Position numbers and translations under genes: made by a program. A stretch of DNA of 64,000 nt from Mycteria americana (lineage: Eukaryota > Chordata > Aves > Ciconiiformes > Ciconiidae). The notes beneath the pieces are model-generated. The model made no database searches, had not been told where the DNA came from, and saw nothing but the letters and a program-made list of their open reading frames with translations. The stretch is taken from the NCBI RefSeq assembly GCF_035582795.1, contig NW_027445436.1:1052770-1116769 (forward strand), in the 5' to 3' direction. Below are positions 4,190 through 64,000 of this stretch, one piece after another. Every line of letters begins with the position of its first letter. Within the stretch, counting starts at the first letter, position 1.

Positions 4190-6013
4190 CTGCTGTAAAA
4201 CACAACAAAAAATAGTTCTTCCAATACATTAGCAGCAAAAGGAGAGCTAAGGAGAATCTCCAGCCCCTAGTAGATGGGGGAGGAAACACAGTGACCAAGG
4301 ATGAGGAAAAGGCTGAGGTACTTAATGCCTTCTTTGCCTCAGTCTTTAAGAGCAGGGCCAATTGTTCTCTGGGTACCCAGCCCCCGGAGTTGGAAGATAG
4401 GTATGGGGACCAGAATGGAGCCCCCATAATGCAGGGGGAAATGGTTAGTGACCTGCTGCACCACTTAGACACTCACAAGTCTATGGGGCCTGATGAGATC
4501 CACCCGAGAGTGTTGAAGGAGCTGGCAGAGGTGCTCACCAAGCCCCTTTCCATCATTTACCAGCAGTCCTGGCTAACTGGGGAGGTCCCAACTGACTGGA
4601 GATTAGCAAATGTGATGCCCATCTTCAAGAAGGGCCGGAAGGAGGACCCGGGGAACTACAGGGCTGTCAGCCTGACCTTGGTACCGGGGAAGCTGATGGA
4701 GCAGATCATCCTGAGTGCTATCACATGGCATGTAGAAAATAACCAAGGGATCTAGCCCAGCCAGCATGGGTTCAGGAAAGGCAGGTCCTGCTTGACCAAC
4801 CTGATCTCCATCTACGACAAGGTGACCCGCCTAGTGGATGAGGGGAAAGCTGTGGATGTTGTCTATCTAGACTTCAGTAAAGCCTTTGACATGGTTTCCC
4901 ACAGCATTCTCCTGGAGAAACTGGCTGCTCATGGCTTGGACGGGTGTACTCTTCGCTGGGTAAAGAACTGGCTGGATGGCCGGGCCCAAAGAGTGGTGGT
5001 GAATGGAGTTTACTCCAGTTGGTGGCCGGTCACAAGCGGTGTTCCCCAGGGCTCTGTGCTGGGGCCAGTTCTGTTTAATATCTTTATCAATGATCTGGAT
5101 GAAGGGATCGAGTGCACCCTCAGGAAGTTTGCAGATGACCCCAAGTTGTGTGGGAGTGTTGATCTGCTTGAGGGGAGGAAGGCTCTGCAGAGGGACCTGG
5201 ACAGGCTGGATCAATGGGCTGGGGCCAATTGTATGAGGTTCAACAAGGCTAAGTGCAAGGTCCTGCACTTGGGTCTCAACAACCCCATGCAACGCTATCG
5301 GCTTGGGGAAGAGTGGCTGGAAAGCTGCCTGGTGGAAAAGGACCTGGGGGTGTTGGTTGACAGCCGCCTGAATATGAGCCAGCAGTGTGCCCAGGTGGCC
5401 AAGAAAGCCAATGGCATCCTGGCTTGTATCAAAAATAGTGGGGCCAGCAGGAGTAGGGCAGTGATCGTGCCCCTGTACTCGGCACTGGTGAGGCTGCACC
5501 TCGAATGCTGTGTTCAGTGTTGGGCCCCTCACTACAAGAGAGACATTGAGGGGCTGGAGCGTGTCCAGAGAAGGGCAACGAAGCTGGGGAAGGGTCTGGA
5601 GCGAGGAGTGGCTGAGGGAACTGGGGTTGTTTAGCCTGGAGAAAAGGATGCTGAGGGGAGACCTCATCGCTCTCTACAACTACCTGAAAGGAGGGTGTAG
5701 AGAGGTGGAGGTCGGTCTCTTCTCCCATGTAACAAATGATAGGACGAGAGGAAATGGCCTCAAGTTGCGCCAGGGGAGGTTTAGACTGGATATTAGGAAA
5801 TTTTACTTCACTGAAAGGGTTATCAAGCATTGGAACAGGCTGCCCAGGGAAGTGGTTGAGTCGCCATCCCTGGAATTATTTAAAAGATGTTTGGATGAGG
5901 TGCTTAGGGACATGGTGTAGTGGTGGTCTTGGTAGTGTTAGGTTTATGATTGGACTCGATGATCTTAAAGGTCTTTTCCAACCTATATGATGTTGTGATT
6001 CGGTGATTCTGTG
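4190..6013 (+). mobile_element. CR1 LINE, 5'-truncated, nearly open reverse transcriptase
   Basis: Chicken-repeat-1 non-LTR retrotransposon, sense on the plus strand. It enters just before the RT domain (residues like YISSKRRAKENL) and shows [57 protein letters not shown] and the catalytic FADD box (palm), followed by the thumb region to about 5,920. The endonuclease domain is missing. A stop at about 4,753 and a frame change near 5,590 interrupt the frame, so it is dead but fairly young. The 3' end carries the CR1-type short repeat (GATTCGGTGATTCTG). It abuts the next retroviral element directly. Confidence 0.95.
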
Positions 6014-11560: not shown

Positions 11561-12049
11561 CTTCCCGAAGAGCCCGTGTCCCTCCAATGCAGCCCTCGCG
11601 CTGCGGTCCCAGTGTGGTCACAGTCCCATAATCACACACAGACTTCTGGCCCTGCTGCTGCTTCTCCACGCTGCGTGCGTGAGCCTGCAGGCCCTTCAGG
11701 GAGGCACCGGCTGTTCTGGTTTCCTGGGAAGAGTGCGAGAGCCTCCTCTGTCGGGCTGCCTGTGTGTTGGGATGTGCAGGAGTGGGGCTGCACGTCTTCG
11801 AGCTGTGTGGTACGCGTGGACTTTCTTCCCTCCTGCCCCTACAGCAGTGCTGGGATCACACGTGGGGTGTGCATAATCCCATCCATCCCCAGGCACAGGT
11901 CAGTCAGTCCAGCTGGGAACAGCCCCAGAGCTCTTTAATTTGTATTTATAGGGGGATCTTGGCAGCTGAGAAGCCTCCCAGCCCCTTTGCTAACAGCCAC
12001 TGCCACAGCCACCGCTCACGGCACCTTCCCCTCTGCTGTGGTACCAGCA
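11561..12049. other. Unassigned spacer between CR1 copies
   Basis: No gene or clear repeat is recognised. Open frames here have no known domain and look like chance frames in GC-rich sequence. Confidence 0.4.
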
Positions 12050-14160
12050 TAGAATCATAGAATCATAGAATCATTAAGGTTGGAAAAGACCATCTAGTCC
12101 AACCGTCAGCCCAACAGCTCCATGCCTACTAAACCATGTCCTGAAGTGTCACATCGACACTTTTTTTGAACTCCTCCAGGGGTGGTGACTCCAGCACCTC
12201 TCTGGGCAGCCTGTTCCAATGCTTAATCACCCTTTCAGTAAAGAATTTTTTCCTCATATCCAATCTAAACCTCCCATAGCTCAACTAGAGGCCATTTCCT
12301 CTCGTCCTATCACTTGTTACCTGGGAGAAGAGACCGACCCCCACCTCTCTACAACCTCCTTTCAGGTAGTTGTTGAGAGCGATGAGGTCTCCCCTCAGCC
12401 TCCTTTTCTCCAGGCTGAACAACCCCAGGTCCCTCAGCCGCTCCTCATCAGCCTTGTGCTCCAGACCCTTCCCCACCGTCGTTGCCCTTCTCTGGACACG
12501 CTCCAGCCCCTCAATGTCTCTCTTGTAGTGAGGGGCCCAACACTGAACACAGCATTCGAGGTGCGGCCTCACCAGTGCCGAGTACAGGGGCATGATCACT
12601 GCCCTACTCCTGCTGGCCACACTATTTTTGATACAAGCCAGGATGCCATTGGCCTTCTTGGCCGCCTGGGCACACTGCTGGTTCATATTCAGGCGGCTGT
12701 CAACCAACACCCCCAGGTCCTTTTCTGCCTGGCAGCTTTCCAGCCACTCTTCCCCAAGCCTGTAGCATTGCATGGGGTTGCTGTGGCGCAAGTGCAGGAC
12801 CTTGCACTTGGCCTTGTTAAACCTCATACAATTGACCTCGGCCCATCGATCCAGCCTGTCCAGGTCCCTCTGCAGAGCCTTCCTCCCCTCAAGCAGATCA
12901 ACACTCCCGCATAACTTGGTGTCATCTGCAGACTTACTGAGGGTGCACTCGATCCCTTCATCCAGATCCTTGATAAAGATATTAAACAAGACTGGCCCCA
13001 AAACTGAGACCTGGGGAACACCGCTTGTGACCGGCCGCCAACTGGATTTAAGTCCGTTCACCACAACTCTCTGGGCTTGGCCATCCAGCCTTCTTTATGG
13101 GTGTCACATTAGGAAGCCTCCAGTCATCTGGGACCTCCCCTGTTAACCAGGACTGCTGATAAATGATGGAGCATGGCTTGGCAAGCTCCTCTGCCAGCTC
13201 CCTCAGTACTCTCGGGTGGATCCCATCTGGCCCCATGGACTTGTCAGTGTCCAGGTGGTTTAGCAGGTCGTTAAATGCTTCCTACTTGATTATGGGAGGT
13301 TTATTCTGCTCTCTGTCCCTGTCTTTCTGCTTAGGGGCCTGAATTCCCTGGGGATAACCGGTCTGACTATTAAAGACTGAGGCAAAGAAGGCATTAAGTA
13401 CCTCACCTTTTTCCTCATCCTTGGTGCCAATGTTCCCCCCCCTGCATCCAATAAAGGAGGGAGATTCTCCTTGGCTCTCTTTTTGTTGTTAATGTATTTG
13501 TAAAAACATTTTTTCTTATCTCTTACAGCAGTGGCCAGCTTCAGTCCTAGCTGGGCTTTTGCCTTTCTTATCTTCTCTCTGCTTGACTTAACGAGATCCC
13601 TGTACTCTTCTTGACTTGCCTGCCCCTTCTTCCAAAAGTGGTAAACTCTCCTTTTCTTCCTGAGTTCCATCAAAAGCTCCCTGTTCAGCCAGGCCAGCCG
13701 TCTTCCCCGCCGGTTCGTCTTATGGCACACGGGGACAGCCTGCTCCTGTGCCTTTAAGACTTCCTTCTTGAAGAATGCCCAGCCTTCCTGGACCCCTTTG
13801 CCCTTCAGGACTGTCTCCCAGGGGACTCTCTCAACCAGTGTCCTGAACAGGCCAAAGTCTGCCTGCCAAATTCTGTCCATGGTAGTGGTTTTGCTCACCC
13901 CCCTCCTTACTTCGTTGCAAATCGAGAACTCTATCATACCATGGTCGCTAAGCCCAAGACGGCCTCCAGCCACCACATGTCCCCCCAGTCCTTCTCTGTT
14001 TGTAACCAGGAGCTCAAGCGAGTCACCTCCCCTGGTAGGCTCACTGACCAGCTGTGTCAGGAAGGTCTCTTCCACACACTCCAGGGACCTCCTAGACTGT
14101 TTCCTCTGCTGTGTTGTATTTCCAGCAGACGTACGGTAGGTTTAAGTCCCCCACAAGAAC
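12050..14160 (-). mobile_element. CR1 LINE, internally deleted
   Basis: CR1 in antisense orientation. Its 3' end is at 12,050 (three ATAGAATC-type repeats on the plus strand), and the sequence reads upstream through thumb, palm and linker into the endonuclease end (14,075-13,290; residues like FLTQLVSEPTRGGDSLELLVTN). The RT is internally deleted: after IYQQSWLTGEVPDDWRL and TPIKK the sequence jumps near 13,095 to the region before SGVPQ, so the DFSKAFD block is absent. The palm box reads SADD. Several frame changes occur. It is a separate insertion from the split CR1 to its left. Confidence 0.93.
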
Positions 14161-14246: not shown

Positions 14247-15004
14247 TGTGAGAGACTGAACCCGTTAATGTCTCAAACATTGTGGCGACGTGAGGCGCAA
14301 TTTGCATGGCGACGTCAGGTTGGCGAGCACGGGGTGGGGGAGAGCGAGAGCGGGAGCAGGACGTGCAGGACGTGGGGAGCGTGTCGGACCGCGCGGTTCC
14401 GGGTTCCATCGGACCTTAAGGGGGTTTGCAACTGCCTGAGAGACCCCTTGTGACCATCCCCCTCCCCCAGCGCCTGCGCAGAAGATTGAGAACTTTCTAG
14501 AAGAAGAACCATGTAAGTCCTGAAGGGGTGTACCTGGAGGCGGGGATTAGTTTATAAAAGACATACCCTCCCCCCAGGGAAGCGCGCACGTGCCCACCAC
14601 TGGAGGATTGCCATGTCTGTCATCGTCATCGCGGGATACAAGGGTGGTGATACTTTTTCTTTCTCTTTCCTCCTCTCTTTTCCTTTCCTTTTCTCGCTTC
14701 CCTCTCCCTCTACTCTTCCAATATATGCAAGTTTGGGATAAATCGTGACAGGTTGCCCGGAAAATAGCTCCATTGCCAAATCACCTTTGTTCGTTTGTTA
14801 AGCTCGCCAGTTCGTTAAGTTTGTCCATTTGTGGAATTCACCAGTTAATAAAGTTGCTGGCCAGACTGTTCCTCTGAGCCATTGTTATGACTCTAAAGAC
14901 CATGCGGCTCTGCCGAGCAGAGATTGGCTTTTGTCAGTACAGAAACCGTCAGGGAATCGAAAGGATTCACCCCTCTCGAAACCCACCAAGTGGGACGAGA
15001 CACA
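14247..15004 (+). mobile_element. Retroviral LTR, plus orientation
   Basis: The sequence begins TGTGAGAGACTG after a short purine run and ends near GAGACACA. It has a TATA box (TTTATAAAAG, about 14,551), a pyrimidine-rich stretch typical of an R/U5 leader (14,650-14,715), and AATAAAG at about 14,846. No internal coding region is adjacent, so it is a solo LTR or LTR fragment. The family is not recognised and the ends are approximate. Confidence 0.6.
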
Positions 15005-25800: not shown

Positions 25801-28800
25801 TCTGCAGAAGGAAATGCTGGGGTGAAGGGGCTGCTGCAGGGGGTCGTGCAGCAGAGAGTGGGGCTGAGCTCTGCTTGTGCCTCCCCATGCAGCCTCGCTC
25901 ACAGCAGCAGCTGAACCCCGGTCATTCAGGGACACGCACGGCACTGTGGGGCACCCTGACTGCTCAGCCCCAAAGGCTCCCTGGTTCACAGAGCAGCAGG
26001 AGGGCGTCCATGGAGGGGACGCTCCTCAGAGCCCTAGCTGGGCTCTTCTGAGACCTTGCCTGGAGACACCTCTGCCTCCCATGGGTGCTGCTGGGAGCCC
26101 AGCTGGCAACTGCTGGTGAATGTGTGGGGCTCTGAGAGCTGAAATCCTGTTTGTGCCCCCAGCAGCAGAAGGGTCTGGCATGGAAAGGAAAAGCCCCTGC
26201 GGGCTGTGTCTCTGCGTTTGACAATGCCCAGCAGGGAGCAGGAGCTGGGGTGACGCTGGTGGCTGGGGGGGTGAGAGTTACCATTGCAGGTGATGTGGAT
26301 CTCATCTCGCAGGTCATCGCATGACCGTGGGTCCCAGGACACGGAGGGACACTTCCAGAAGGAGCTGTTTCTCTCCCCACACTGCACGCGATCCAGCCAG
26401 GCGGGGCCAGGCAGCCTGCCATAGGTCGGGTATGGTTCCAGGTACCCTCCGTCCCCACAGCCCAGCTCCTTGCATGCCAGCGACACTGTTTTGGGAGTCA
26501 TTGAGTTTAAGCAGACGCTCCCCCACGTCCCGTTATAGAAAACCTGCAGGCGCCCAGAGCAGTTGCTGCTGTTCTCCAGCCTCAGGGCCACGAACTCTGG
26601 GAGGAAAGGCACCGAATGGGAACAGGCTGGTTCGGGGCTGTGGGAGCAGGGATGCCCCTGCACCCCCAGGCCCTCAGCCAGGCAAAGGCATGGCCAGCAA
26701 GTCCCCCTTGCACCCATGGGCAGAGAAAAATCCCTGACTGACAGACACCCCTGCCCTCCACGCTAATCCTCCAGGATGGCTCAGCTCCCCAGGGCCCCCC
26801 GGGTGGGACTGAGGGGACCCATGCGTGGGCGTACCCAGAGTGGGCTTGGGCAGGGGCTCAGAGGCGGCCATGAACAGCCTTGGCCGTTGCCAGCTCTCCC
26901 CTTGTCCTGGCCTCCCCGGGCACTGGGCTCCCGGACCAGGTCCCAGCACAGACCTGAGCAGACGACTCCTGCGTCCTCCTTGCGCCCGCAGTTGTCTTGC
27001 GCCCAGGACCCTGCCAGGCAGTCCCAGAGAGCAGCTTCGGCCCTGGAGCAGTTCATGCCCTGCAGCCAGATCCAACCGGAGCCTTTCCCGAACAGAGCAG
27101 AGCCAACCGCCTCTGCCGCCCCTCCGCAGCCCAGCTGGTGGCAAACGACAGTGGCGTCGGGCAGGTCCCAGCCATGATCACAGATGGTCCCCCAGCTGCC
27201 CTGGTAGTAGATCTCCACTCTGCCAGCGCAGCGCCCGGGCCCATTCACCAGCCGGACCTGCCAGCTCCCTGCAGCAGGAAGAAAGCCCAGCTGCCATCAG
27301 GGGCCGGCTGCCCACCCAGCCCAGAGCCTGGGAGGGCCCGTGCAGTGCCACTCACCCCAGCAAACGACCCCCACGTCCTCTGCAATCCCTGCTGCCAGTG
27401 CGCTCTCGGGCACGGAGGTGTTGCAGAGGGTCAGCTTGGCCTCGTGCCCTGCGCACCACACCCCTCGCAGCCCCACAGGACCCGTCCCTCTCTGAGGCTT
27501 CGGGGGGATGTAGGCTGCCTCTGCCTCTCCGCACTGCAGCTGCCGGCACACCACGCTGGTCTGCATGTCCCACTGGTCATCCAGAACTCTGCCCCATGTC
27601 CCGCGCTGCAAGATCTCAACTCGCCCGTCGCACCGGCTCCCTCCACCCACCAGCCGCAGGGATGAGGAGCTGTCTGGGCCTGGGGAGAGCAGCCATGCCC
27701 CAGCCCTCAGCAGCACCAGACAGCCCAGAAACCTGCAGCACCTCTCCAGGCTCTGGAACCCTCACGGTGCCCTGAAGCTCACCCACCTACCCCCAGCCCT
27801 CTGTGGCGAGCTTCAGGAGCAGCTTTCCACATGGCTGGTTTCCCCGTCCCTCAGCCTTCCTGGGCAAGACCCTCTCTGCTCTTGCTGGGCCAGAGCCACC
27901 CAACACGTCCCTGGCTGAGGCAGCTGGGGCAGCTCCCGCAGGAGGGAGCAGCAGCCGGTGGTGGCCTGGGGACAGGCAGCACCAGGACAAGCCTTGCCCA
28001 ACCTCAGTGCTGGCATTGGCACTGCTGAGCCATGGGGCAGAGCCCACACGTCTCTGCCCTCTGCATCCCTGGGGACCTGGGACTGGGAGCCTGTGTCGCT
28101 GGCAGGGATCAGAGCAAGGGAGACCTTCCCGATCAAACAGGAACAGTTTGGGACTTGTGCTGACCAGGAGTGAGGGCAAAGCCCAGCCCTGCTCTGCAGC
28201 TCACAGCCCTGCTCTGCTGCTGCTGCTGCTGCTGGGGGCACCCAGACACCCCTGTGGGTGTGGGATTGGGCTCTGTGGGACTCACCTGAGCAAATGACAG
28301 CAGCGTTGCTCTCGTGGGAGCACGGCGAGGCCCCCAGGGCGGCCACTGGACACTGTCCCAGGTGGGCTTCAGTCCCGTTGCAGTGGAATGAGTCTCTCCA
28401 GACAGGGCCGGGTCCTCTCCCAAAATGCCCTCCTCTGGGAATGGACTCCGCAAACCCGCAGTTGAGGTGACGACAGAGAACGTGGGCGTCCGAGAGATCC
28501 CAGCGGGAGGCACAGAGGGTGCCCCAGGTCCCCAGCACCTCAACCTCCACCCTTCCCTCACGCCGTGCTGCCGTTCACCAGCCTGAACCCTGTGTACTCT
28601 GCGGACAGAGAATGATGAGAGAGGGCGGACTTGTGCTTTTGCTCCCTCGGGAGGTGGAGGAGTGGCCAAATGGAGGAGAACCTGCCATCCTCCTCCTTCT
28701 GCACGATTTTAGGGCTGCAGACAACCACATCACCACTTCTGTCCTCATGCCCAGCACAGCACAGTCCCTGCCCTGCTCCCCTTCTCCTAGCACAGCCCCA

Positions 28801-32400: not shown

Positions 32401-33690
32401 GCCACGGGGTGCCATCGGTGACGTGACCTCACATCCCTCCGACTGCCATCGCTGTATGCTCAGGAGTTTTACTGACAGTGACCTCACACCCTCCTGCTTC
32501 TGCTGCTGCATGCTCATGAGTTACACTGTTACACGCGTGTGTGTGTGCTGTGTACGGGCTTTTGCTGACGATGGTTCTTCCCAAAAGCCATATTTGGGTG
32601 GGGTCTAACGATTATGTTGATGACATCAGGAGCACCCACACAAGCCATAGGCCTGCTCTTGGCCTAAAAGCTACTCTGGCACCAGAGAAATCACAAGCTC
32701 GTACACAAGCCATGTGCATAGTCCTGGCCTATCCGCCACTCAGCCGCAGGTGATGTCATAGCATCTAAACCTGCCAAGTGCCTGCTCCTGGCCTATCAGG
32801 TATTCAGACACCAATGACCTCACAAACACCTACACAAGCTATTGATCTGCTCCTAACCTATCATCTACTCAGGCACCAGTGACACCACAACAACCTCCAC
32901 CACCCCTGGGCCTGCTGCTGGCCTATCAGATACTAGGGCAGCAGTGACTTCACAAGCACCTACACAGCCCTCGTCCTGGCCTATCAGCTAATCAGTCACA
33001 AATGACCTTGCCAACACCTACGCAAGACAGATGCTTACTCCGGGCCTACCAGCTTCTCAGGCACCTGTGACCTCAAAAAATCCAACTCAAGACATGTTTC
33101 TCCTGGTCTACCACTTACTCAGGCATCACTGACATCACCAAGACATTCACAAGCCATGTGCCAGCTCCCGGCCTATCATCTACTCAGACACCAGTGACCT
33201 CACAAGCACCTACACAATCCATAGGCCTGTTCCTGTCCTACTAGCTACTCAGGCATGAGTGACCTCATAAGCACAGACACAAGCCATGGGTTGGCTCCTG
33301 GCCTGTCAGGTATTCAGCCGAGAGTGAACTCACAGGTACGTATCTGCCTATTTGCCATGTACTTGCCGTTGAGGTACTCGGGCTCCAATGACCTCACAAG
33401 CACCTTTACAAGCTGTGTACCTGGTCCTGGCCTATCAGCTACTCAGCCAAGAGTGACATCACAAGTACATACCCAAGCTGTGTCTCTCCCTCTTGCCTAT
33501 CAGCTGCTCAGGCACCAGGGACCTGACCACCACATATCCACCTCTTTGCTATCTGCTTGCCTATGAGATACAAGGGAACAAGTGACCTCACAGGCTCCTA
33601 CACAAACCATAAGCCTACTCTTGGCCTATCAGTTGCTCAGGCAGCAGTGACCTCACAAGCATATACCAACCTATTTGCAACGTGCTCGTC
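32400..33690. repeat. Degenerate ~66-bp minisatellite carrying TGACCTCA
   Basis: About twenty diverged units share CTGCTCCTGGCCTATCAGCT, then ACTCAGGCACCAGTGACCTC, then ACAAGCACCTACACAAGCC. Spacing is roughly 62-70 bp. The block TGACCTCA (reverse complement TGAGGTCA) is one of its best kept parts. High divergence between units suggests an old array. Confidence 0.85.
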
Positions 33691-38777: not shown

Positions 38778-39131
38778 GGAGACCTTCTTGTAGCCATACA
38801 ACATATCTAGAAGGCTTGTAAGAAGATGGAGAGAGACTTTTTACCAGGGCCTGTAGTGATAGGACAAGGGATAATGTTTTTTAAAAGAGAGTAAATTTAG
38901 TTTGGATATTGGAAGAAATTTTTTATGGTGAGGGTGGTGAGACACTGGAACAGGTTGCCCAGAGAACTTGTGGATGCCCCATCCCTGGAAGTGTTCAAGG
39001 TCGGGTTGGATGGGGCTTTGAGCAACCTGACCTAGTGAAAGACGTCCCTGCCCATGACAGGGGGGTTGTACTAGATGATCTTTAAAGGCTCCTTTCCAAC
39101 CAAAGCCAGTCTATGAGTCTATGAGTCTCTG
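38778..39131 (+). mobile_element. CR1 LINE 3' end fragment
   Basis: Typical CR1 3' region (GAGGGTGGTGAGACACTGGA, GTTGCCCAGAGAACTTGTGG, GTTGGATGGGGCTTTGAGC). It ends with the unusual short repeat TATGAGTCTATGAGTC. About 110 bp of its content repeats the end of the CR1 at 37,230-37,339, so it is a separate copy rather than the other half of that one. Confidence 0.9.
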
Positions 39132-43389: not shown

Positions 43390-45330
43390 AGTGGGGTGTA
43401 GCGAGAAAGCATGAGACAGGGAACAGGACAGTGAGAGAAGGACCGGGACAGGGAGCCCAATAGAGGTGGAGAAAGACGCAGCAGGGAGAGACGAAGAGAG
43501 GTAACAGAAAGAGGGAGAGGGAGCAGGATGGAGATGCAGGAAAAACCTGGGATGGACAGCACGACGGGAGGAAAGAGGGAGGACAGAGAGGGAGGAAAGA
43601 AGAATAGAGGCAGGAAGATGGACCAAGAGAGATGGGGAAAGACAAAAAAGCAACAAGAACAGGTCAGAGAGGGAGGAATGAAACAACAGGGACAGGGAGC
43701 CAGAACAGCGAACACTGGAGGGAAGGGGCGGCAGGGAGAACACCACCAAACAACCCCCATAGCTACCCGCTGCAGGGCAGAGAGGGAAGAATTAAGAAAT
43801 AGGGACAGGGAGATGGAAAAGAGAGCTGGAGAGCAAAAAGCATAGCAATGCATACAGAAAGAAGAGGGGGGGAATTCTAAAATAGTGTCATTGGGGAGCC
43901 AGAGACAGTGAGATGGAGAAAGCACAAAAGCAACAGGCTACAGGGCGGGGAGGGAGGAATGAAAAAACCAGGGAGGGGGAGCCAGGCAGAGAGGCAAAAA
44001 TGAAATGGGGAAAAGCAACGAGCCACAGGGCAGAGAGGGAGGAATTGATAAATAGGGACAGGGGACCAGACAGAACACGGTGTAGAATGGAAAAAAATAG
44101 CAGTGGGCTACAGGGAAGAGGGAGGAATTAAAGAACAGGGAGTGGGAGCTGGACAGAGAGACATGGAGAAAGGGGGGGCAAAAAACAGTGATGGGCTACA
44201 AGATGGATAGGGAGGAAATAAAAATTGGTGGCAGGGAGCTGGGCAGAGAGCGATGGAGAAAGGAAGAAAAAAAAAAAACAAAAAACCTGCAACAGGCTAC
44301 AGGGCAGAGAGGGAGCGATGAAAGACTCAGGACAGGGAGTGGGCCAGAGAACGGAAAGATAGTGACAGGCCACAGGGCACAGAGGGAAGAATTAAGAAAT
44401 AGGGACAGGGAGCTGGACAGAGAGAGATGAGGAAAGACAGATAATAGCATTGTGCTACAGGGCCGAGAGGGAGAAACTGAGAAATAGGGACCAAGAGCTG
44501 AAAAAAGGAGAGACAGAGAAAGGACAAATCGCAATAGGCCACAGGGCAGAGAGGGAGGAATTAAAAAAACGGGACTGGGAGCAATCTACAGAGAAGATGT
44601 CGGGGAACGAAAATTTAAAGAGCGACGCATACAGGGCAGAGAGGGAGGAATTTAAAAAAATAGGTAGGGACAGGGAGCTGGAGAGAGAGACTGAGAAGGG
44701 GAAAAGTCATGACGGGCTTCCAGAGACAGAGGGAGGCATTAAAAATTAGAGACGGGGAGTTGGGTAGAGAGAGAGGAAGAAAGAAAAAACACTGCGGCAG
44801 GCTATTGGGCAGAGAAGGAGAGCTTAAAAATGAGGACAGAGAGGGAGGGAGAAAGGAAAGAAGCAACGGGTGATGTGGCAGAGAGGGAGGAATGAAGAAA
44901 GAGGGACAAGGAGCCAGGCAAAGCGAGACAGGTAAAGAAACATATAGCGATGGGCTACAGGGCAGAGAGGGAAGACTTAGAAAAACAGGGACAGGGAATA
45001 AGACAGAGTGAGATGGAGACAGGAAAAATACCAACGGGCAACAGGACAAAGAGGGAGGAATTCAAAATGAGAGACAGGGAGCAGGATAAAGAGAGACAGA
45101 GAAAGAAATAGACTTGCGATGTGCTACAGGGCCGAGAAGGAAGACCTTGACCAGCAGGGACAGGGAGGCAGACAGAGAGAGACAGAGACAGCAAAAATAC
45201 CAACAGGCCAGAGAGAGGGAGGACCTAAAAGATGGGGGCAGAGTGCTGCTCAGAGCGAGATGGAGAAAGGAGGTACGGGGAGCAAAAAACTCTCGCAGCA
45301 GCATGGGAAGGAGACGGGGCCAGGGGAGGG
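43390..45330. repeat. Purine-rich ~85-bp minisatellite
   Basis: About twenty-two units on the plus strand share CTACAGGGCAGAGAGGGAGG, then AATTAAGAAATAGGGACAGG, then GAGCTGGACAGAGAGAGATG. Unit starts are spaced about 70-99 bp, mostly 82-87. Open frames rich in Arg, Glu and Lys arise from it, but the usual unit is not a multiple of three and no single frame runs through, so it is not coding. Confidence 0.92.
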
Positions 45331-49748: not shown

Positions 49749-50650
49749 TTACCTCAGGTCATCCTTGAGCTCCTTGTTCCTCATGCTGTAGAAGAGGGGG
49801 TTCACTGTTGGGAGCATCACCGCATACAGAACTGCCATGACCAGATTCAAAGAGGGTGAAGAGATTGAGGGGGGCTTCAGGTTGGAAAACATGCCAGTGC
49901 TGAGAAATAGAGAGACCACGGCCAGGTGAGGGAGGCACATGGAAAAGGCTTTGTGCCATCCCTGCTCAGAGGGGATCCTCAGCACAGCCCTGAAGATCTG
50001 CACATAGGACAGCACAATGAAAATAAAAGAGCCCCAAAATAGAAAAGTACTGAACACAAGAAGCCCAGCTTCCCTGAGGTAGGAGTTGGAGCAGGAGAGC
50101 TTGAGGATCTGGGGAATTTCACAGAAGAACTGGTCAACAGCATTGCCTTGGCAGAGTGGCAGTGAAAACGTATTGGCAGTGTGCGGCATGGCGTTGAGAA
50201 AACCACTGCCCCAGGCAGCTGCTGCCGTTTTGACACAAGCTCTTCCTCCCAGGAGGATCCTGTAGTGCAAGGGTTTGCAGATGGCTATGTAGCGGTCATA
50301 GGACATGATGGTGAGAAAATAAAACTCTGCTGACATCAAAAAGAGAAAGAAAAAACCTGGGCAGCACATGCTGAGAAGGAAATGTCCCTGGTGTCCCACA
50401 GGGAAGTGGACATGGGTTTGGGGACAGTGGTGGAGATGGAGTCCAGGTCAAAGAGGGAGAGGTTGAGGAGGAAGAAGTACGTGGGGGTGTGGAGGCGGTG
50501 GTTGCAGGCTATGGCTGTGATGATGAGGCCGTTGTCCAGGAGGGCAGCCAGGTAGATGCCCAGGAAGAGCCAGAAGTGCAAGAGCTGCAGCTCCCACATG
50601 TCTGTGAATGGCAGGAGGAGGAACTCGGTGATGGAGCTGCTGTTGGACGT
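49749..50650 (-). pseudogene. OR14-like olfactory receptor pseudogene
   Basis: Single-exon class II olfactory receptor of the bird-expanded OR14 (gamma-c) type: SNSSSITEFLLLPF, LLNLSLFDLDSISTTVPK, MSYDRYIAICKPLHY (family MAYDRYVAIC), SYVQIFRAVLRIPS, KAFSMCLPHL and NPLFYSMRNKELKD. Full family length of about 300 residues is covered. Two lesions are visible. The usual initiator Met before SNSSS reads ACG (50,648-50,650), with no nearby in-frame ATG. A one-base frame change lies in a homopolymer at about 50,350-50,356, at the start of the third membrane helix. HTPTYFF replaces HTPMYFF. It is likely nonfunctional unless the frame change is a sequencing error. Confidence 0.92.
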
Positions 50651-53871: not shown

Positions 53872-55945
53872 ACCAATCACTTGTCTCTGGAGACTCCGGT
53901 GTCATCAGGTCGTCCTCTGAAACTTCTTCAACAAGATTAGAGGGGACAAATCCTCTTGTGCCATCAGTCAACTCTCCCACATACCAACCCTCTTCATCCA
54001 TGTCTCCAAAGACGTAAACATACTGTCCAGCAACTAGAGGAAGCTCTAGTTCAGGCTGCTCATTGGGACCATTGAAAGGATCATAGCTGTATTGAGCTAT
54101 GAATGCTCGAAGCTCTGCTGGTTGTTTTCTCATAGCCTCCAGGAGGATGGACTCCTTGTCTGCTCCCAGGGTAGCCTGGCATGGCTTGGAAATGATACGG
54201 TTGGATCTTTCTCTTTCCAGCCATTCCAGTTCCTGAAATAGCTGCTGGCATTGTTCCTTTAGCTTTTGACAAAGATCATTCAGTTCAGTCACCTGGGTTC
54301 GAAACAGTTGCAGGGTTTTTTTGTGTTCCCTGCATACTTCTGTCTGAGCCCTCCGCAAAGACTCGACTTCCTCTCCTTTCCTCTGGAGCACTAACTTTGT
54401 CTCCTCATATTCCTTCTACAGCTGTTGACTTCTTTCTGCCGTTTCTCTCATGGCTTTCAGTTCGCGCTCCGCCTCTTCCAGCTGGGTTTGAAGACAGACG
54501 TTTGTTTGGATGGCAGAATCCGCTCCTCTGCCACTCGCCTTAGTTGCCTTTTCTGTCAAACCCATCTGCCCACAGAGGCAAGCATTTTCTTCAGCCAGTC
54601 GGGTGTTTGCATTTGTCACCCCTGTAAGCTGCACCTGTAACTCCTCACATGTTCGGCTGTGGGTGCTCACATAATAGGAGCCCTCTTCATCTGCAGCCAC
54701 TTGGGCCTGAAGCTCCTCAGCCACCTTCTGTGAGAAGTCATCCTGCTCGTCCCATGCCAGCAAAGCTCTGGCAGGCTCTTCCATTTCTCCAGCCCTCTGC
54801 TGAGGAAACGATGTCATACACAGTTCCTCAGTGGCGCTTTGGATGGGCAGTGGCACCCGAGTATTGATCAGGTGATCGATAGTCTGCAGTTGCCTGGCTC
54901 TTTCTTGCAGCTGCTTGCTAATAAGACCCAGCTTAATGGTCTTCTGCTTGAGCCTCTCCCACTCCTCCCACTCTGCCTTCCTCAGAAGACAGTTCTCCTC
55001 TTGAAGGACACTGCATTGCCTCTCGAGGTCCTTCAGGGCACTCTGGAGGTGGGCGTTCTGCTCCAGCAGCCTGCTGTGACTGCTACGAGGCAGCCAGTCC
55101 TGCTGCCCTACAGTCTGAACACCCACCTCTGCCACAGACTGCCCGCTGCCAGTCCTTCCTTGCGACAGGGAGTCCAAGCAGTGCAGCACCAAGTCTTGCC
55201 CCACAGCCTTGAGCAAAATCTCCACGCTGTTCCCTTCCTCCTGGAAGCGAGTGTCTTTTAAGCTCTGACAGGTTTTCTGCTGCCCTTCTCTATCACAGGA
55301 GGAAGATGCCATGAGTGTCTCCAAAGAGCAGGGTCCAATGGCCCCAGTGCCCAGGAGGGTCTGCAGGCGGTGCCAGGCTGTAGCCTTGGCCCTGGCCTCA
55401 TTGCAGGTAGTGGGCTGCTCGCCCTCGAACCGTTCCAAGATACACTTTAGGAAGCATCTCCTCTGCAGCAGCAGTTCATCTTCAAGGCGGTGGATGTGGG
55501 CAGCCTGCTTGCCATTGGTCTCCCAGCGCAGCTTGCTGAGGACATCGTGGAGTTTCCTGTGAGCCTCGCTGCTGCTCCAGGCTCCTCTCACCAGCTTCTT
55601 GGCCAGCTGCTGCTGCAGGTCCTGTGCCTGACAGACAGCATCGTTACACTGCTGCTGCAGCATCCCCTGCACCTCGCGCAGCTCAGCCTCCTTCGAGCAC
55701 AGCAGCTGGCAGATCTCCACCGCCCGCTGCCGCTGGTTCAGCTCCTGCAACCGCTGGAGCTCCCGTGCCTGCCGCTGCTCCCATCTGGAGTGCAGCTGTT
55801 CGGCCAGGAGCTGCCGGTCCCGCTCTGCCGCCTCCTTCAGCTTGCGAGTTTCAGCGGTGAAGCGGCGGCACAGCTCTTGGGAGCGGAGTCGCTCAGCCTC
55901 CAGCTCAGCCTGCAGCCTCTCCAGCTGCCGCTTGTGCCCATCCTT
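53872..55945 (-). pseudogene. RIMBP3-like coiled-coil/SH3 gene, shortened and interrupted
   Basis: Relative of RIMS-binding proteins, closest to RIMBP3 (spermatid manchette protein) by its long coiled coil. From 55,945 it reads ERLQAELEAERLRSQELCRR, then IHRLEDELLLQRRCFLKCIL, matching the RIMBP3 coiled-coil segment. It ends with an SH3 domain (about 54,120-53,925): [31 protein letters not shown] and [11 protein letters not shown]. The start at 55,945 follows a TAG that fits a splice acceptor, so an upstream exon is expected but not found. An in-frame TAG at 54,416-54,418 (after AERSQQL) interrupts an otherwise open ~2-kb frame. The TAG at 53,872-53,874 comes soon after the SH3, so the FN3 and two C-terminal SH3 domains of the family are missing. 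It may be a pseudogene or a truncated paralog with a sequencing error. Confidence 0.75.
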
Positions 55946-58238: not shown

Positions 58239-59237
58239 GTTAGTTTGGTTTCATGTGCCATGCTCTTACTGCCAGGGAAGATCATTTCTTGCTTCCTGTG
58301 GCTAATGAATTGCCTTCAAAAGGCATGCCTTTAGTGAGCCTTTGGCATTTGGAGTTCCTGCTGCTGCTGGAAAGATGCTAAAATGGAGGATGTGGGCATC
58401 CTAGATCCTCAGAGTTGCTTCATAGCTCATTGCCATTGTGCCCTACTGCTGTGGTAAATGATACGGTGGGTGGTGAAGCATGAGGAGGGGAAAAAAAGCC
58501 AACATACAAGTCCTAGCCAGCTGAATGAGGTGGCCTCCTCATATGAACCCAATCAGAAACTTGTGTGGGATTGTAATAAAAGATGGAATTTTATGGAAGA
58601 GAAAATCATTCCTTATTTCTCAAGCCTGCTGCTTCTTCTGCTTGTTGTGAAGGACACAACAAAATTCTAAGTCCAACCCTAAGGACTCTGAATCTCCTAG
58701 TACTCCCAAAACATCCATCAATTGCTCCCACATGAAAGGTGCCAGCACTGAAAGCTGTTGCTGGTCCTCACCTTCCCTTGGCAGTGCATTCACAGCCCCA
58801 CAAACTCTGGGGCTCTGGTCTTGTCTAGCCTCCTAAGGTTCAATCACTCTCTCTCTCACTCTTGCCAGCGCCCAGCTCCAAAATTGATAACATCCAGCAA
58901 TTGCTCCCACACCAAACATGCCAGGACTGAAAGCTGTTGGTGGTCCTCACTGTCCCTTGGCACCGCATTCACAGCCCCATGAACTCTGGGGCTTGAGTAC
59001 TGCTGTCAGAGCTGTCCGAGTCTCTTTAAGGTCTCTCTGAGCTCTTCCTGTCCAGAGGCAGCACTGGGAGGAGGGACAGGGTGGGCTGCTGGTGCCCTTT
59101 GTGCAGCTTGGGCCCTGCTGGGGGCAGTTTTGGTGCTGCCTGCTTTCCTCCTCCTCCTTTTTCTTCTCCTGCTCCTCTGGCACAGCGGAAGAAAGATGCT
59201 GTGCTCCTCCTTCATCCACAGTCACAATCTGCCCCTG
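58239..59237. other. Spacer with a tandem duplication
   Basis: Two units at about 58,713-58,830 and 58,891-58,995 share GCACTGAAAGCTGTTG-like and CATTCACAGCCCCA blocks with a ~178-bp period. A minus-strand Lys/Arg/Glu-rich open frame at 59,006-59,215 might be additional tail or 3' UTR of the neighbouring gene. Confidence 0.5.
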
Positions 59238-59930
59238 TCACCACTGACGCCTCCCGAGTGTTTGTCCGTCCTGCATCTCTTGGGAAACCCTCCTCCTCCT
59301 CCCCGCTGAGAGGTCATAGTCTGTGGCAACCACAAACCAGCTGTGGCAATCAGAACCCCACAGTGGGGATCTGCTCCGCTCTCTCTGCCTCAGCAGGGTT
59401 TGTTCCTGAGCAGCCCTGCATGCGGGAGCTGACCGGGAGCTGGCGTTGGATGGCCCTGGAGCTGTGTCATCCCTGGCAGTGCGGTCACAACTTGGATGAC
59501 TAGTTCTCCTCCTCCTCCCTGCTGAGTGGTCATAGCTCATGGTGTCCACGAACCAGCTACGGAGATCATTGCCCAGCCACGGCGATCTGCTCCGCTCTCT
59601 CTGCCTCGGCAGGCTTTGCTTCGTGGGTGCAGGAGCCAACTGCAAGCTGGCATTGGAAGGCCGTGGAGCTATGTTATCCCTGGGGGCTCTTTGATGACTT
59701 GGAGGACTGGTCCTCCTCCTCCTCCTCCCTGCTGAGTGGTCATAGTCCGTGTTTTCCACGAACCAGCTGTGGAGATCATTGCCCCCCTGCGGGGATCTGC
59801 TGCGGGCCCTCTCCCTGGCACTGTTCCTCTGGCAACGGGAAGAAGGGCTGAATCTGCGCTCCTCTTTGTTGTTGTCTTCTCCCATGGTGTGCTGCACACG
59901 GTCACATGGTTGACAGGGGACTGGGCAGGT
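59238..59930 (-). CDS. Probable C-terminal exon of the USP42-like gene: RS-rich repeats
   Basis: Minus-strand open stretch ending at a TGA at 59,238. It contains three in-frame repeats of 72 and 69 residues spacing, each with a core RERSRSP, then W-FV-T-YD-SAGRRRR (for example HSWFVENTDYDHSAGRRRR). Arg-Ser dipeptides and basic runs suggest a nuclear or splicing-speckle protein region. USP42 of mammals also has an Arg/Ser/Lys-rich C-terminal tail with nuclear localisation, which, with position and strand, supports this being the tail of the gene at 61,309-63,740. The splice acceptor is not settled; an acidic exon candidate (MEDSGEDSSSSARASK, about 60,009-60,093) lies upstream. I do not know this repeat. 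Confidence 0.5.
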   Translation of the reverse strand, partial: TCPVPCQPCDRVQHTMGEDNNKEERRFSPSSRCQRNSARERARSRSPQGGNDLHSWFVENTDYDHSAGRRRRRTSPPSHQRAPRDNIAPRPSNASLQLAPAPTKQSLPRQRERSRSPWLGNDLRSWFVDTMSYDHSAGRRRRTSHPSCDRTARDDTAPGPSNASSRSAPACRAAQEQTLLRQRERSRSPLWGSDCHSWFVVATDYDLSAGRRRRVSQEMQDGQTLGRRQW

Positions 59931-60730
59931 TGCCTTCTGCACGTGTAGGAGGCGATGTCGAGCCTGCCTGACGAGATGGGGCATGGCCAGCCTGCAGATG
60001 CCTCCTGTACACCTGCCCGGGTTAGCTGGCTCTTGCTGGCTCTTGCAGAGGAGCTGCTGTCCTCCCCAGAGTCCTCCATGCCCACCGCCATGGCCTGCAA
60101 AGAGAGCTGTGAAAAGGTCCTGCCCTTTCCTCCTGAAAGGACCACAACAGTGGGGAAACCCCAGAAGCTGTGTCAGGGGACAGCTAAGGGCCTTCCAAAG
60201 GCTCTCCTGGAGGGCTGCAAAGGCAGAAGGGCCAAAGGCAGACAAATGGGATGGATCTAAGTGGGATGCTTTGAGACGGAGCAGCGTTGCGGCTGTGAAG
60301 AAAGCTGCAGTGTGGGAGGGAAAAGAGAGCAATGCCAAGATCCCAGAAAGAAAGCCACTGTCCATCTGGTGCCCTGACCCACCCCCAGAGTTACCTTAGT
60401 CCACGAGGCAGACCCTGTGGTCCCACAGAACTCACCTGCTTGCTGTTGCCCCCCCCCGACTGAGGAAGGAACGGGCATATGAAGGTGCCAGTGAGGAATA
60501 AGCCCCTTCTCCAGTTCTCAAATCAGAGCACCTGGAGAAAAAAGAGAGCGGTCTCCATTTTAGGCTGTTCTTGCAGCCTCCTCAGGGGTTCAGTCATTTT
60601 CTTGGCACAGTTTCTATGACAGAGATAAGACGTAACCAAGACTATGGAAAATACGATTGGGGTCTTCCCACCAGCTCTGCCCCTGTCGCAGCAAGACCTC
60701 GCCTTTATACCCCCTATGGCCTCCATTTCA

Positions 60731-61072
60731 TGGAACCATAGAATCATAGAATGGTTTGGGTTGGGAGGGACCTTAAAGATCATCTAGTTCCAAATGCCCT
60801 GCCATGGGCAGGGACACCTTCCACTGGATCAGGCTGCTCAAAGCCCCATCCAGCCTGGCCTTGAAGACTTCTGGGGAGGGGGCATCCACAACTTCTCTGG
60901 GCAACCTGTTCCGGTGCCTCACCACCCTCACCGTAAAGAATTTCTTCCTCATATCTAATCTAAACCTACCCTCTTTCAGTTTAAAACCGTTACCCCTCGT
61001 CCTATCGCTACACTCCCTGATAAAGAGTCCCTCCTCATCTTTCCTGTAGGCATCCTTTAAGTACTCTGCTCT
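60731..61072 (-). mobile_element. CR1 LINE 3' end in a USP42-like intron
   Basis: Antisense CR1 tail. On the plus strand it reads CATAGAATCATAGAATGG at the 3' terminus, then GGCAGGGACACCTTCCACTG, TGGGCAACCTGTTCC and CACCCTCACCGTAAAGAATT. Severely 5'-truncated and relatively well conserved. It lies between the last catalytic exon and the tail of the USP42-like gene. Confidence 0.93.
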
Positions 61073-61308: not shown

Positions 61309-63740
61309 CTGACATAAAACAGTAAATAAGCTTGCTGCCTAAGAACTGTGTCGATGCCACAACCATCCACAGATGTATCGTTCATTTTGTACCACAGTCC
61401 ATTGCTGGCCTGTACAAAGAGGCAAGGATATCTGGAGATGAACTGCATGGTTTCTGAACAGTAACACAGGCAGAAAACTACAGCACCAAGAGTCCACCAA
61501 AACCAATCCAATGCAGCTGGGAAGGAGACCTTCTCCCCCCAAACCTTGGCTGCCAGTAACACTGCTGTGAATGTTTGTCTTCCTCAGCACACATTTTTCC
61601 CCTGCGAGGAAGCAAGTTGCTCTTTACCTTTGTGTAGCAGAAATAGTGTCCTGCACAACAGCTGCCGCCACGATGTACCAGGACAGCATATAAGGCATAG
61701 AGGAGAGGTTCTCCAGCTGTCTGAGATGTGTATGGCCGAAGATCCAAGTACTCAGGATACTTCACAACCTACAGAGAGAGCAAGAGGGCTCAGAAACGAT
61801 TCTGAAATACTACATGAATTAGCCTTCAACATGTGATGGTTTGGGTGGCAGGAAACTGCTCTTGGCCAAAGCAGCTCCGTTGGAGCAGAGTACATGCTTC
61901 TCTTCCCATGGGAACCCTCCTCTCCTTGGAAGGGAACACGAAACATGAACGGCTTGTGAAAGGGCGTGCTGCTGTGGGAAACCTCCCGCTCCAGGAAGAG
62001 AAAGTTGCACTCCAATTGTGTACACACCTTGCCGATCTTCCCGCCGGTGAAATCTCCAAACCTTTTCAGACACAGCGTGAGAACCTTGGGCACGCAATGG
62101 ATTGTAAACCTCTTGGAGGCGGCAACCATCTTGTCACACCTTGAAACCAAGCACAGAGCCAAAAGCTGAAAAGCCCTATCTTCCTCCAAGAAGGCCACAC
62201 AACCTTTCATGTCTCACACACCCTTACGCTATTTTAAGGCTATACAGTACCATAGGGCCATATTAAAAGAAGCTGCGTCTCATTATTGTGCATCTGACTT
62301 ACATGAAAAGATACCTTTTCACGCTCAATGACATGCAGCACCTTCACACAGGATCTAGCATTAATATGTCATTAGTAATCATCTTACTTGCTACATTTAA
62401 AGCAGTTTTCGCCGTCCAGCTGCTCGGGTTTCACAAAGCCCTCCAGCGCTGCAGTGACAGATGAGGCTGCCTGGGGGAGTGAGAAAGGAGAGCACTGAGC
62501 TTGAGGAAACACCCTCACCCAAACACTTCCTAGGAGTTTACGCAAAAACCCAGCCAGATGATGTGAGGAGACTCACCGTGAACCCGCAAGCAGTGTCTAG
62601 AGGGTATTATGCTGAACATTTCCCTCATTTCCCAGGAATTCCCGGGACTATCAAGAGCTACCTCTGTGTGGCACTGCACAGTTCAGCTACCAATGGTGTG
62701 CAGGGTCGTCAATAATGAAAACAGTACAACCCATCAGCCTAGGAGCCAGACGGGTGTTGAGGGAGGGCAAAAGGAAGAAGGATGAGAGTACAAGAAGGGT
62801 GCAGAGAGGATAATTTGTACTTGTCCAGCTTAAAGCCAGCACCAGCTTCCTCCAGAAGGAGGACACAGACCATTCCACTTCCCACCCACCACCAAGCTCT
62901 CTTGTATTCGCGCTATACATTATAAAGTCAACTGCATTGATTCTGGAAAGCTACAGGGACCTTGGGACCTCTTGAAACACAATTACAAACTCTCTTACTT
63001 TTATATCCAAAGGAATATCCAGGAAAGCCTCATAGGAATTGGAATCTGCTTTGCAGCTCAAGCACATGACTGGAAAGCAAATTGAAATGCTCAGCGATAG
63101 GGGAAGTCGACTGCCTGTGCCGGTTTACCCTCTTCATACCTACTGCACCAGTCACACGATCAGCTGTTTGTCACAGGCAGGCAGAAGGACACAGACAATT
63201 CCAAGGAGAGCAATAGTTGTGGAAAAGTACCTCTGGATCTCAGAAAGCCCCCAAAGATCTGATGGACGATGGTCGTTGCTTGAGAAGAGGTGTCCAAGCT
63301 GGAAAGAAATGGTGAGGCAGAGAGTTATCTCCTCCAAGAGTTTTGCTTTGTCTGAAAAGCCTGCGAGTAGGTTTTCCTTGATGGGAGTACATCAAGGAGT
63401 GTCCAAAGGGCTTGGGAACATTGAAAAGGTCATTTGCTTGTGCTTACTCGCTACTTCCACTCAGGCAGGCTCTCTGCATGGCATCGACAGTATAGCGTAA
63501 GAATTCGTGGGCGTCTTCCTGCCTGCCAGGCTCGAAATGTTCTCCTATCCCTGAGAAAGAAGGAGTTAGTAGTTCTCTCCTACAAGAACAGAAGAAAACC
63601 CATAGAAGCACCTGAAATAAATGACTTACGTGTGAAGACACTGATGACAGCCCTAGGCTGGATGGCACTGGCTGAGGAATGCAGGACATCATTAATGTGC
63701 GCTTCCATTATGCGCATCATGCAGAAGCCTTGCTGACAAC
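61309..63740 (-). CDS. USP42-like deubiquitinase, catalytic exons (partial, enters from right edge)
   Basis: Ubiquitin-specific protease, a cysteine peptidase that removes ubiquitin from target proteins, here close to USP42. Exons: 63,630-63,740; 63,448-63,550; 63,231-63,298; 62,999-63,069; 62,388-62,470; 62,028-62,139; 61,628-61,768; 61,309-61,409. Junctions are GT-AG and phases chain without a break. Residues include [29 protein letters not shown], the zinc-binding CLSC and CFKCSKC pairs, [23 protein letters not shown], the catalytic His in GHYFCY, and NGLWYKMND; it ends [11 protein letters not shown]. The Cys box lies beyond 64,000. The reading frame is intact here, unlike the inverted copy at 58,120. 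USP36 and USP17-type enzymes are relatives, but VDAMQ and the tail favour USP42. Confidence 0.88.
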
Positions 63741-63790: not shown

Positions 63791-64000
63791 AAGCTTCTCA
63801 GGTTAGCAAAATACCCATAGTGGTGGGAAACCTAATGGAGATCTTGAAGTTGTAAGAACAGCCTCCACTCCTCTTCTCCCAAGGTGCCAGTGTCCCAACA
63901 AGCCTGGAACATTTGAGTACCTAGAAAACTTTCTTCAGAGGGATGCTAAACTGATACAAGTTTTCTGTGCAATAAGCAAAGAGAGTTTAACTTGCAGGAA

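Follow-up and report, generated by a model that had tools for sequence, protein, structure and literature searches.

The three arginine/serine-rich (RS) units on the minus strand of this window (the whole stretch of 64,000 nucleotides analyzed here, from the wood stork Mycteria americana) apparently belong to an undescribed bird gene family. Judging from sequence comparison, this family probably descends from a duplicated USP42 deubiquitinase gene whose tail joins a TOPORS-derived start to RS units, and the window probably holds a decaying member of it. The family, the join, the similarity to USP42 and to TOPORS and the frame shifts are directly supported by the comparisons below; a nuclear role of the tail, and decay rather than assembly error, we infer.

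Three repeats in one minus-strand frame had been proposed in a preliminary description of this DNA, and all three were confirmed by motif spacing and unit comparison: unit 1 at 59613..59822, unit 2 at 59397..59612 and a truncated unit 3 at 59271..59396. Measured from the positions of RSRSP, W-FV, YD and SAGRRR, the spacings were 210 and 216 bp. They are multiples of three, as proposed, and the earlier values of 216 and 207 bp were slightly off in the latter. Tandem Repeats Finder placed an array at 59289-59801 (period 216, 2.4 copies, 75% matches, score 553), and self-BLAST aligned the repeat block with itself at 74.8% over 326 bp (E 1.5e-55). In all six frames of the 64-kb window, W-FV, SAGRRR and YD-SAG did not occur outside the repeat block, and RSRSP gave a single chance match there, at 14338. 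The stop-to-stop frame with the units covers 59238-60395 (385 codons); it is partly made of sequence that is spliced out in relatives, and at either end of the repeat block it diverges from the frame of the family. This frame matched no Pfam family at E up to 0.1, so that a known Pfam domain was rejected as the identity of the unit, and a search of solved structures with two units returned one chance match only (E 0.4). Just past the repeat exon, 58710-58814 and 58889-58993 form a 105-bp direct duplication, 88% alike.

A USP gene, also on the minus strand, occupies the high end of the window, with its first exons past base 64000. Between 63740 and 61309 it has eight catalytic exons, each bordered by AG/GT; joined, they read as one open frame, which matches Pfam UCH. 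These are exon A (63630..63740), which follows the Cys box outside the window and encodes the residues of the annotated protein P0004; exon B (63448..63550), with QEDAHEFL, also seen in the Pfam scan; exon C (63231..63298); exon D (62999..63069), with CLSC; exon E (62388..62470), with CFKC; exon F (62028..62139); exon G (61628..61768; UCH E 4.7e-9), with the His box AGHYFCY; and exon H (61309..61409; UCH E 6.7e-5), the end of the USP domain. Position 61309, earlier supposed to be the join point to the protease, is indeed the end of this last catalytic exon. A search with the tail (residues 345-560 of the 560 of the joined model) found 27 proteins with E of 0.01 or lower, the best being P0004 itself (QYF61_021282, Mycteria americana), whose sequence is 100% identical across the tail region used. 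The full P0004 sequence includes the catalytic residues of the window exons, matches UCH at E 6.2e-58 (Pfam) and is a USP deubiquitinase (peptidase family C19); it keeps the Cys-box cysteine, in an exon taken from P0004 itself, and the His box lies in window exon G.

Downstream of exon H, still on the minus strand, an intron element at 60737..61041 is 81% like 38823-39123, and we take it to be a CR1 LINE. Comparison with USP42 and with relatives then places a linker exon at 60395..60531, like that of true USP42, with donors at 60436 (before gtgag) and 60395 (before gtaact). Two acceptors follow: the first base after that of the annotated model is 60132, and the first base after the one that fits the relatives' join (D/A-MAVGMED) is 60094. 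A TOPORS-like N-terminal stretch (MAVGMEDS...CRRQP, 59927..60091, 92.7% to P0003 in frame -1) lacks most of the RING core and stands in a frame different from that of the repeats. It is followed in frame -3, according to protein-versus-DNA comparison, by the end of a RING remnant and the start of the repeat block (CPVPCQPCDRV...CQRN, 59823..59927). The family tail end (PKRCRTDKHSGGVSGDRGRL, 59225..59284, 90% to P0003) lies again in the frame of 60091-59927.

Using the three units as the seed of a profile, we detected the unit one to six times in 46 of 138 collected proteins and not at all in a shuffled set at E < 0.01, and a chance repeat was rejected on this recurrence. The count is no frequency, since 27 of the 138 proteins were collected using this very tail. 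The tail search scored 7994 candidates sharing most words and a second protein search 7981, the second contributing the best 120 of 3336. In the precomputed Pfam column, 33 of the 46 unit-bearing proteins have a UCH domain, and the other 13 are tail pieces. By a hand count of names among the matches listed, these 33 come from 23 bird genera, including stork, pelican, cormorant, loon, vulture, buzzard, owls, pigeons, manakins, flycatchers and songbirds; the wood stork is a member of Neoaves. Across 107 aligned units, the consensus core reads approximately lReRerSRSp..GydLrS.FV..TDyd.Sa.RRRRtSpPsrd. The proposed joining of a USP42-like deubiquitinase to a protein repeat was thus supported at the family level, by these 33 proteins. 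The accompanying statement that the unit comes from no recognised family did not hold, as it matches the tail of bird USP42-like proteins, which appear in databases as USP42-like, USP17-like or hypothetical. Searches of an open-licence literature library, including a word search of the text of PMC4377847, gave no description of a bird USP42-like family with RS units. In P0028, a 1341-aa model from Bubo scandiacus, tail units recur in two sets, at 391-492 and 892-993 and hence some 500 residues from each other, which points to tandem gene copies or merged models.

The window model has three units behind the USP domain, but the ordinary frame to them is broken. Comparing the proteins of relatives with the window DNA, we found three frame changes with respect to P0001, P0002 and P0003: in the nine-G run of the linker (60449..60457), at 59927 and at 59284. 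The latter two cancel each other, and the repeat block is therefore out of frame with both the start and the end of the tail exon. Frameshifted units in close relatives had been named beforehand as evidence against a protein repeat; changes of frame were met just outside the units, at the three places given, and the units themselves are uninterrupted. We translated the combinations of two donors and two acceptors, and three of the four reach a stop codon no more than 89 residues from the start of exon H. With the protease exons open and the tail damaged, the product of ordinary family splicing would end soon after the protease domain. The open frame, earlier read as a sign of selection, was rejected as proof of it, because frame shifts relative to the relatives adjoin the units and because of these splice translations. 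Moreover, of 133 catalytic positions conserved at 95%, the window copy differs at 5; the corresponding counts are 0/133, 0/133, 0/129 and 0/133 in four other stork copies, and 1/87 and 0/68 in two partial stork copies. About eleven other compared rows also depart at two or more such positions, and divergence by itself is thus no proof of decay. A Met beside the catalytic Cys in P0004 was not counted as decay because 3 of the 138 proteins share it. Overall, the stork copy looks damaged between enzyme and repeats, and decay of its tail seems the most likely explanation of the compared sequences.

Assembly error ranks second. An intact copy with erroneous frame shifts would fit the uninterrupted units, which are 85-89% like those of relatives, and the linker shift in particular could be such an error, as it falls in a nine-G run. 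The shifts at 59927 and 59284 are, however, away from homopolymers, the eight catalytic exons contain no frame shift, and the RING core missing from the window copy is also missing from P0001 and P0003; we therefore regard this explanation as unlikely. Somewhat less likely again is a working copy, for which the annotated model would be right and the acceptor at 60132 would carry the protease frame into the repeats. P0004 is indeed annotated in this way, with a canonical acceptor, and of the four combinations only that of donor 60436 and acceptor 60132 reaches the repeats and stays open to the end. Yet the resulting residues (KGQDLFTALFAG...) are found in 1 of the 138 proteins, P0004 itself; none of the other 137 reads the stretch from 60132 in that frame, relatives reading the same DNA in other frames. 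The protein end also exits the family frame at 59284, and the five changed catalytic positions count against a working copy.

We then considered where the family's protease came from. Among solved structures, USP36 is the best match to P0004 (E 3.3e-132), and the linker exon, RCSDLRTGEGA..APSYARSFLS, matches the true USP42 linker RRYDLTLGERAFYLPAPSYPRSFLGQRGANSKQAGFMGPRLPPHMIK. In a tree of 55 hand-picked catalytic domains (three rows shorter than 250 residues; SH-aLRT, no bootstrap), all 26 unit-bearing rows fell within one clade of 35 rows with SH-aLRT 98. This clade adjoins true USP42 and is set apart from true USP42, fowl duplicates and palaeognath rows, so that by the tree P0004 is not a USP42 orthologue. 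The unit is lacking in 9 of the 35 rows, some of them models visibly cut short or different in the tail, and the unit label needs 8 changes on the tree; the palaeognath and fowl members without the unit are a sample. No true USP42 row has the unit, and the highest score among twelve proteins examined, including true USP42, fowl and palaeognath ones, was 1.8 bits (E 2.6), on which ground an origin of the unit as part of true USP42 was rejected. True USP42 has a long C-terminus, measured at 932-976 residues in three proteins; P0004 lacks it, its tail being replaced after the linker.

The join bears on a further explanation, in which protease and tail would be two adjacent genes fused by automatic annotation. 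The 13 tail pieces without a USP domain would agree with it, and the Bubo model P0028, with two protease-tail sets in one chain, suggests that models do get merged. Against this, the same order and join are repeated in 23 genera, and in 15 of the 22 proteins with a recognisable junction the tail starts directly after a USP42-type linker ending in SKQ, RTK or the like; in the remaining 7 models, upstream sequence continues into the tail. Fusion by annotation is therefore improbable, and ranks below the working copy.

Ahead of the units, intact family members carry a degenerate RING. With a profile built from 120 TOPORS proteins (the best 120 of 725), 15 of the 138 proteins matched at E<1e-3, the best at 8.8e-17, compared to best E values of 0.42-4.8 for five shuffled sets. 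The RING part alone scored 35 bits (E 9.6e-11), and 57 bits with its flanks; the N-terminal part alone and the post-RING part alone were not significant in the profile search. An origin of the RS unit itself from TOPORS was kept out of the claim, the post-RING part alone having reached E 3 at best. The window copy alone gave only E 0.14, and at least 31 of the 46 unit-bearing proteins are without a clear RING. Of the eight zinc ligands of a C3HC4 RING, assigned by eye, five are present in P0011 and at best six in P0007, so that this remnant would be degenerate and presumably no working ligase. In the RING-bearing members, then, a deubiquitinase is, to judge by sequence similarity, fused to part of a ubiquitin ligase. 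The least likely of the alternatives is that the likeness is a generic RING or low-complexity resemblance: a real family fragment does match other solved RINGs (best EHV-1 RING, E 1.8e-4) and family matches to Pfam RING models stay below cut-offs, but the TOPORS profile scores exceed the 24.7 bits of the best solved RING (under another scoring system and database), and the match runs ungapped through the RING beside a matching N-terminus.

Unit-to-unit dN/dS was 0.55, 0.48 and 0.45 in the proposed frame, compared to 1.24-1.74 and 0.54-0.84 in the other two frames. The excess of silent changes was significant in one of the three pairs (Fisher p 0.086, 0.105 and 0.039). Selection on a protein repeat, as had been suggested, is consistent with these values for the history of the family and not for the window copy: they are a weak sign of constraint in the family's past and say nothing on the present copy.

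The bird family tails have a net charge of +11 to +39, and three bird USP42 C-termini one of +18 to +35. SR-type RS domains extend over about 50 residues with more than 40% R+S. The best 50-residue R+S fraction was 0.42 in P0004, 0.40-0.50 in ten family tails and 0.44-0.46 in the three USP42 C-termini. Pfam scans with a threshold of E 0.1 detected no RRM domain, as an SR protein would carry. AlphaFold2 gave a mean pLDDT of 45.7 for the tail of P0007 (16 sequences), in which the RING did not fold, and of 39.2 for P0004, from a shallow alignment in which the catalytic core was poor too. According to PMC8329168, the localization of human USP42 to nuclear speckles depends on positively charged motifs in the disordered C-terminus, and on catalytic activity as well. 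Given the similar charge and R+S content, the tail appears suited to serve as a nuclear address in place of the lost C-terminus, and it may target speckles.

We propose that a USP42 duplication founded the bird (Neoaves) family, whose long C-terminus would have been lost after the linker exon, and that a new tail was attached at this exon boundary. Its first part would stem from the beginning of TOPORS (N-terminus plus RING), followed by one to six tandemly multiplied arginine/serine-rich units of about 70 residues. The protease domain would remove ubiquitin, and the RS tail, which is disordered and positively charged, would lead the protein to nuclear bodies, taking over the role of the disordered C-terminus of human USP42. 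The window copy would be a decaying member, its protease exons still open and its tail damaged. A more specific scenario is possible, and we put it forward tentatively: the chimera may have arisen in the Neoaves ancestor, when a USP42 duplicate acquired the TOPORS start and so combined ubiquitin removal with the nuclear-body address of a ubiquitin/SUMO ligase. The RS units might then have multiplied, varying in number by copy and species, as for a fast-evolving, perhaps germline, nuclear deubiquitinase acting on or against the targets of the parent ligase.

Among known systems, USP42 (USP36/USP42 group) resembles the family in its catalytic domain and linker exon (RRYDLTLGERAFYLPAPSY...) and differs in its long C-terminus, where the family has a new, short tail. 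The RS-rich RING E3 ligase TOPORS has a profile that fits the N-terminus and RING of intact members, but in the family the RING ligands are partly lost and the rest of TOPORS is missing. Chimeric genes for deubiquitinases have a precedent in USP6: like the bird genes a lineage-specific USP (hominoid-specific), it was made by fusion of two genes, although from other parents, in another lineage and with the added module at the opposite end. USP17/DUB is a multicopy family of short, lineage-expanded relatives of USP36/42, and some bird members bear the name USP17-like; the bird gene, in contrast, contains introns and has an unlike tail. If our reading is true, a bird-lineage chimeric deubiquitinase family with variable repeat number is present in widely sequenced genomes. 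It would offer a natural swap, a new disordered tail on the same catalytic domain, on which the contribution of charge and RS content versus sequence to USP42 speckle placement can be tested. It would also serve as a warning that automatic models may thread a frame through a decayed tail.

Elsewhere in the window, an olfactory receptor frame lies at 49752-50447 on the minus strand (Pfam 7tm_4, E 2.4e-29). In the crow protein P0017, RS units run into an olfactory receptor within one model, and the two may thus be neighbors in crow too. Also on the minus strand are two scavenger receptor cysteine-rich domain exons (26037-26762 and 27816-28574; Pfam SRCR) and a 509-codon frame at 54419-55945 with a RIMB1-like N-terminal domain (E 2.6e-24). 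A tandem array at 32621-33658 has a 65-bp unit in 16.2 copies (63% matches), and G+A-rich, internally similar repeats with periods of partly 85 and 169 bp occupy 43580-45290. Finally, 4961-6013 and 12048-13097 form an inverted pair, 87% alike over about 1060 bp, whose frames resemble, by eye, LINE reverse transcriptase.
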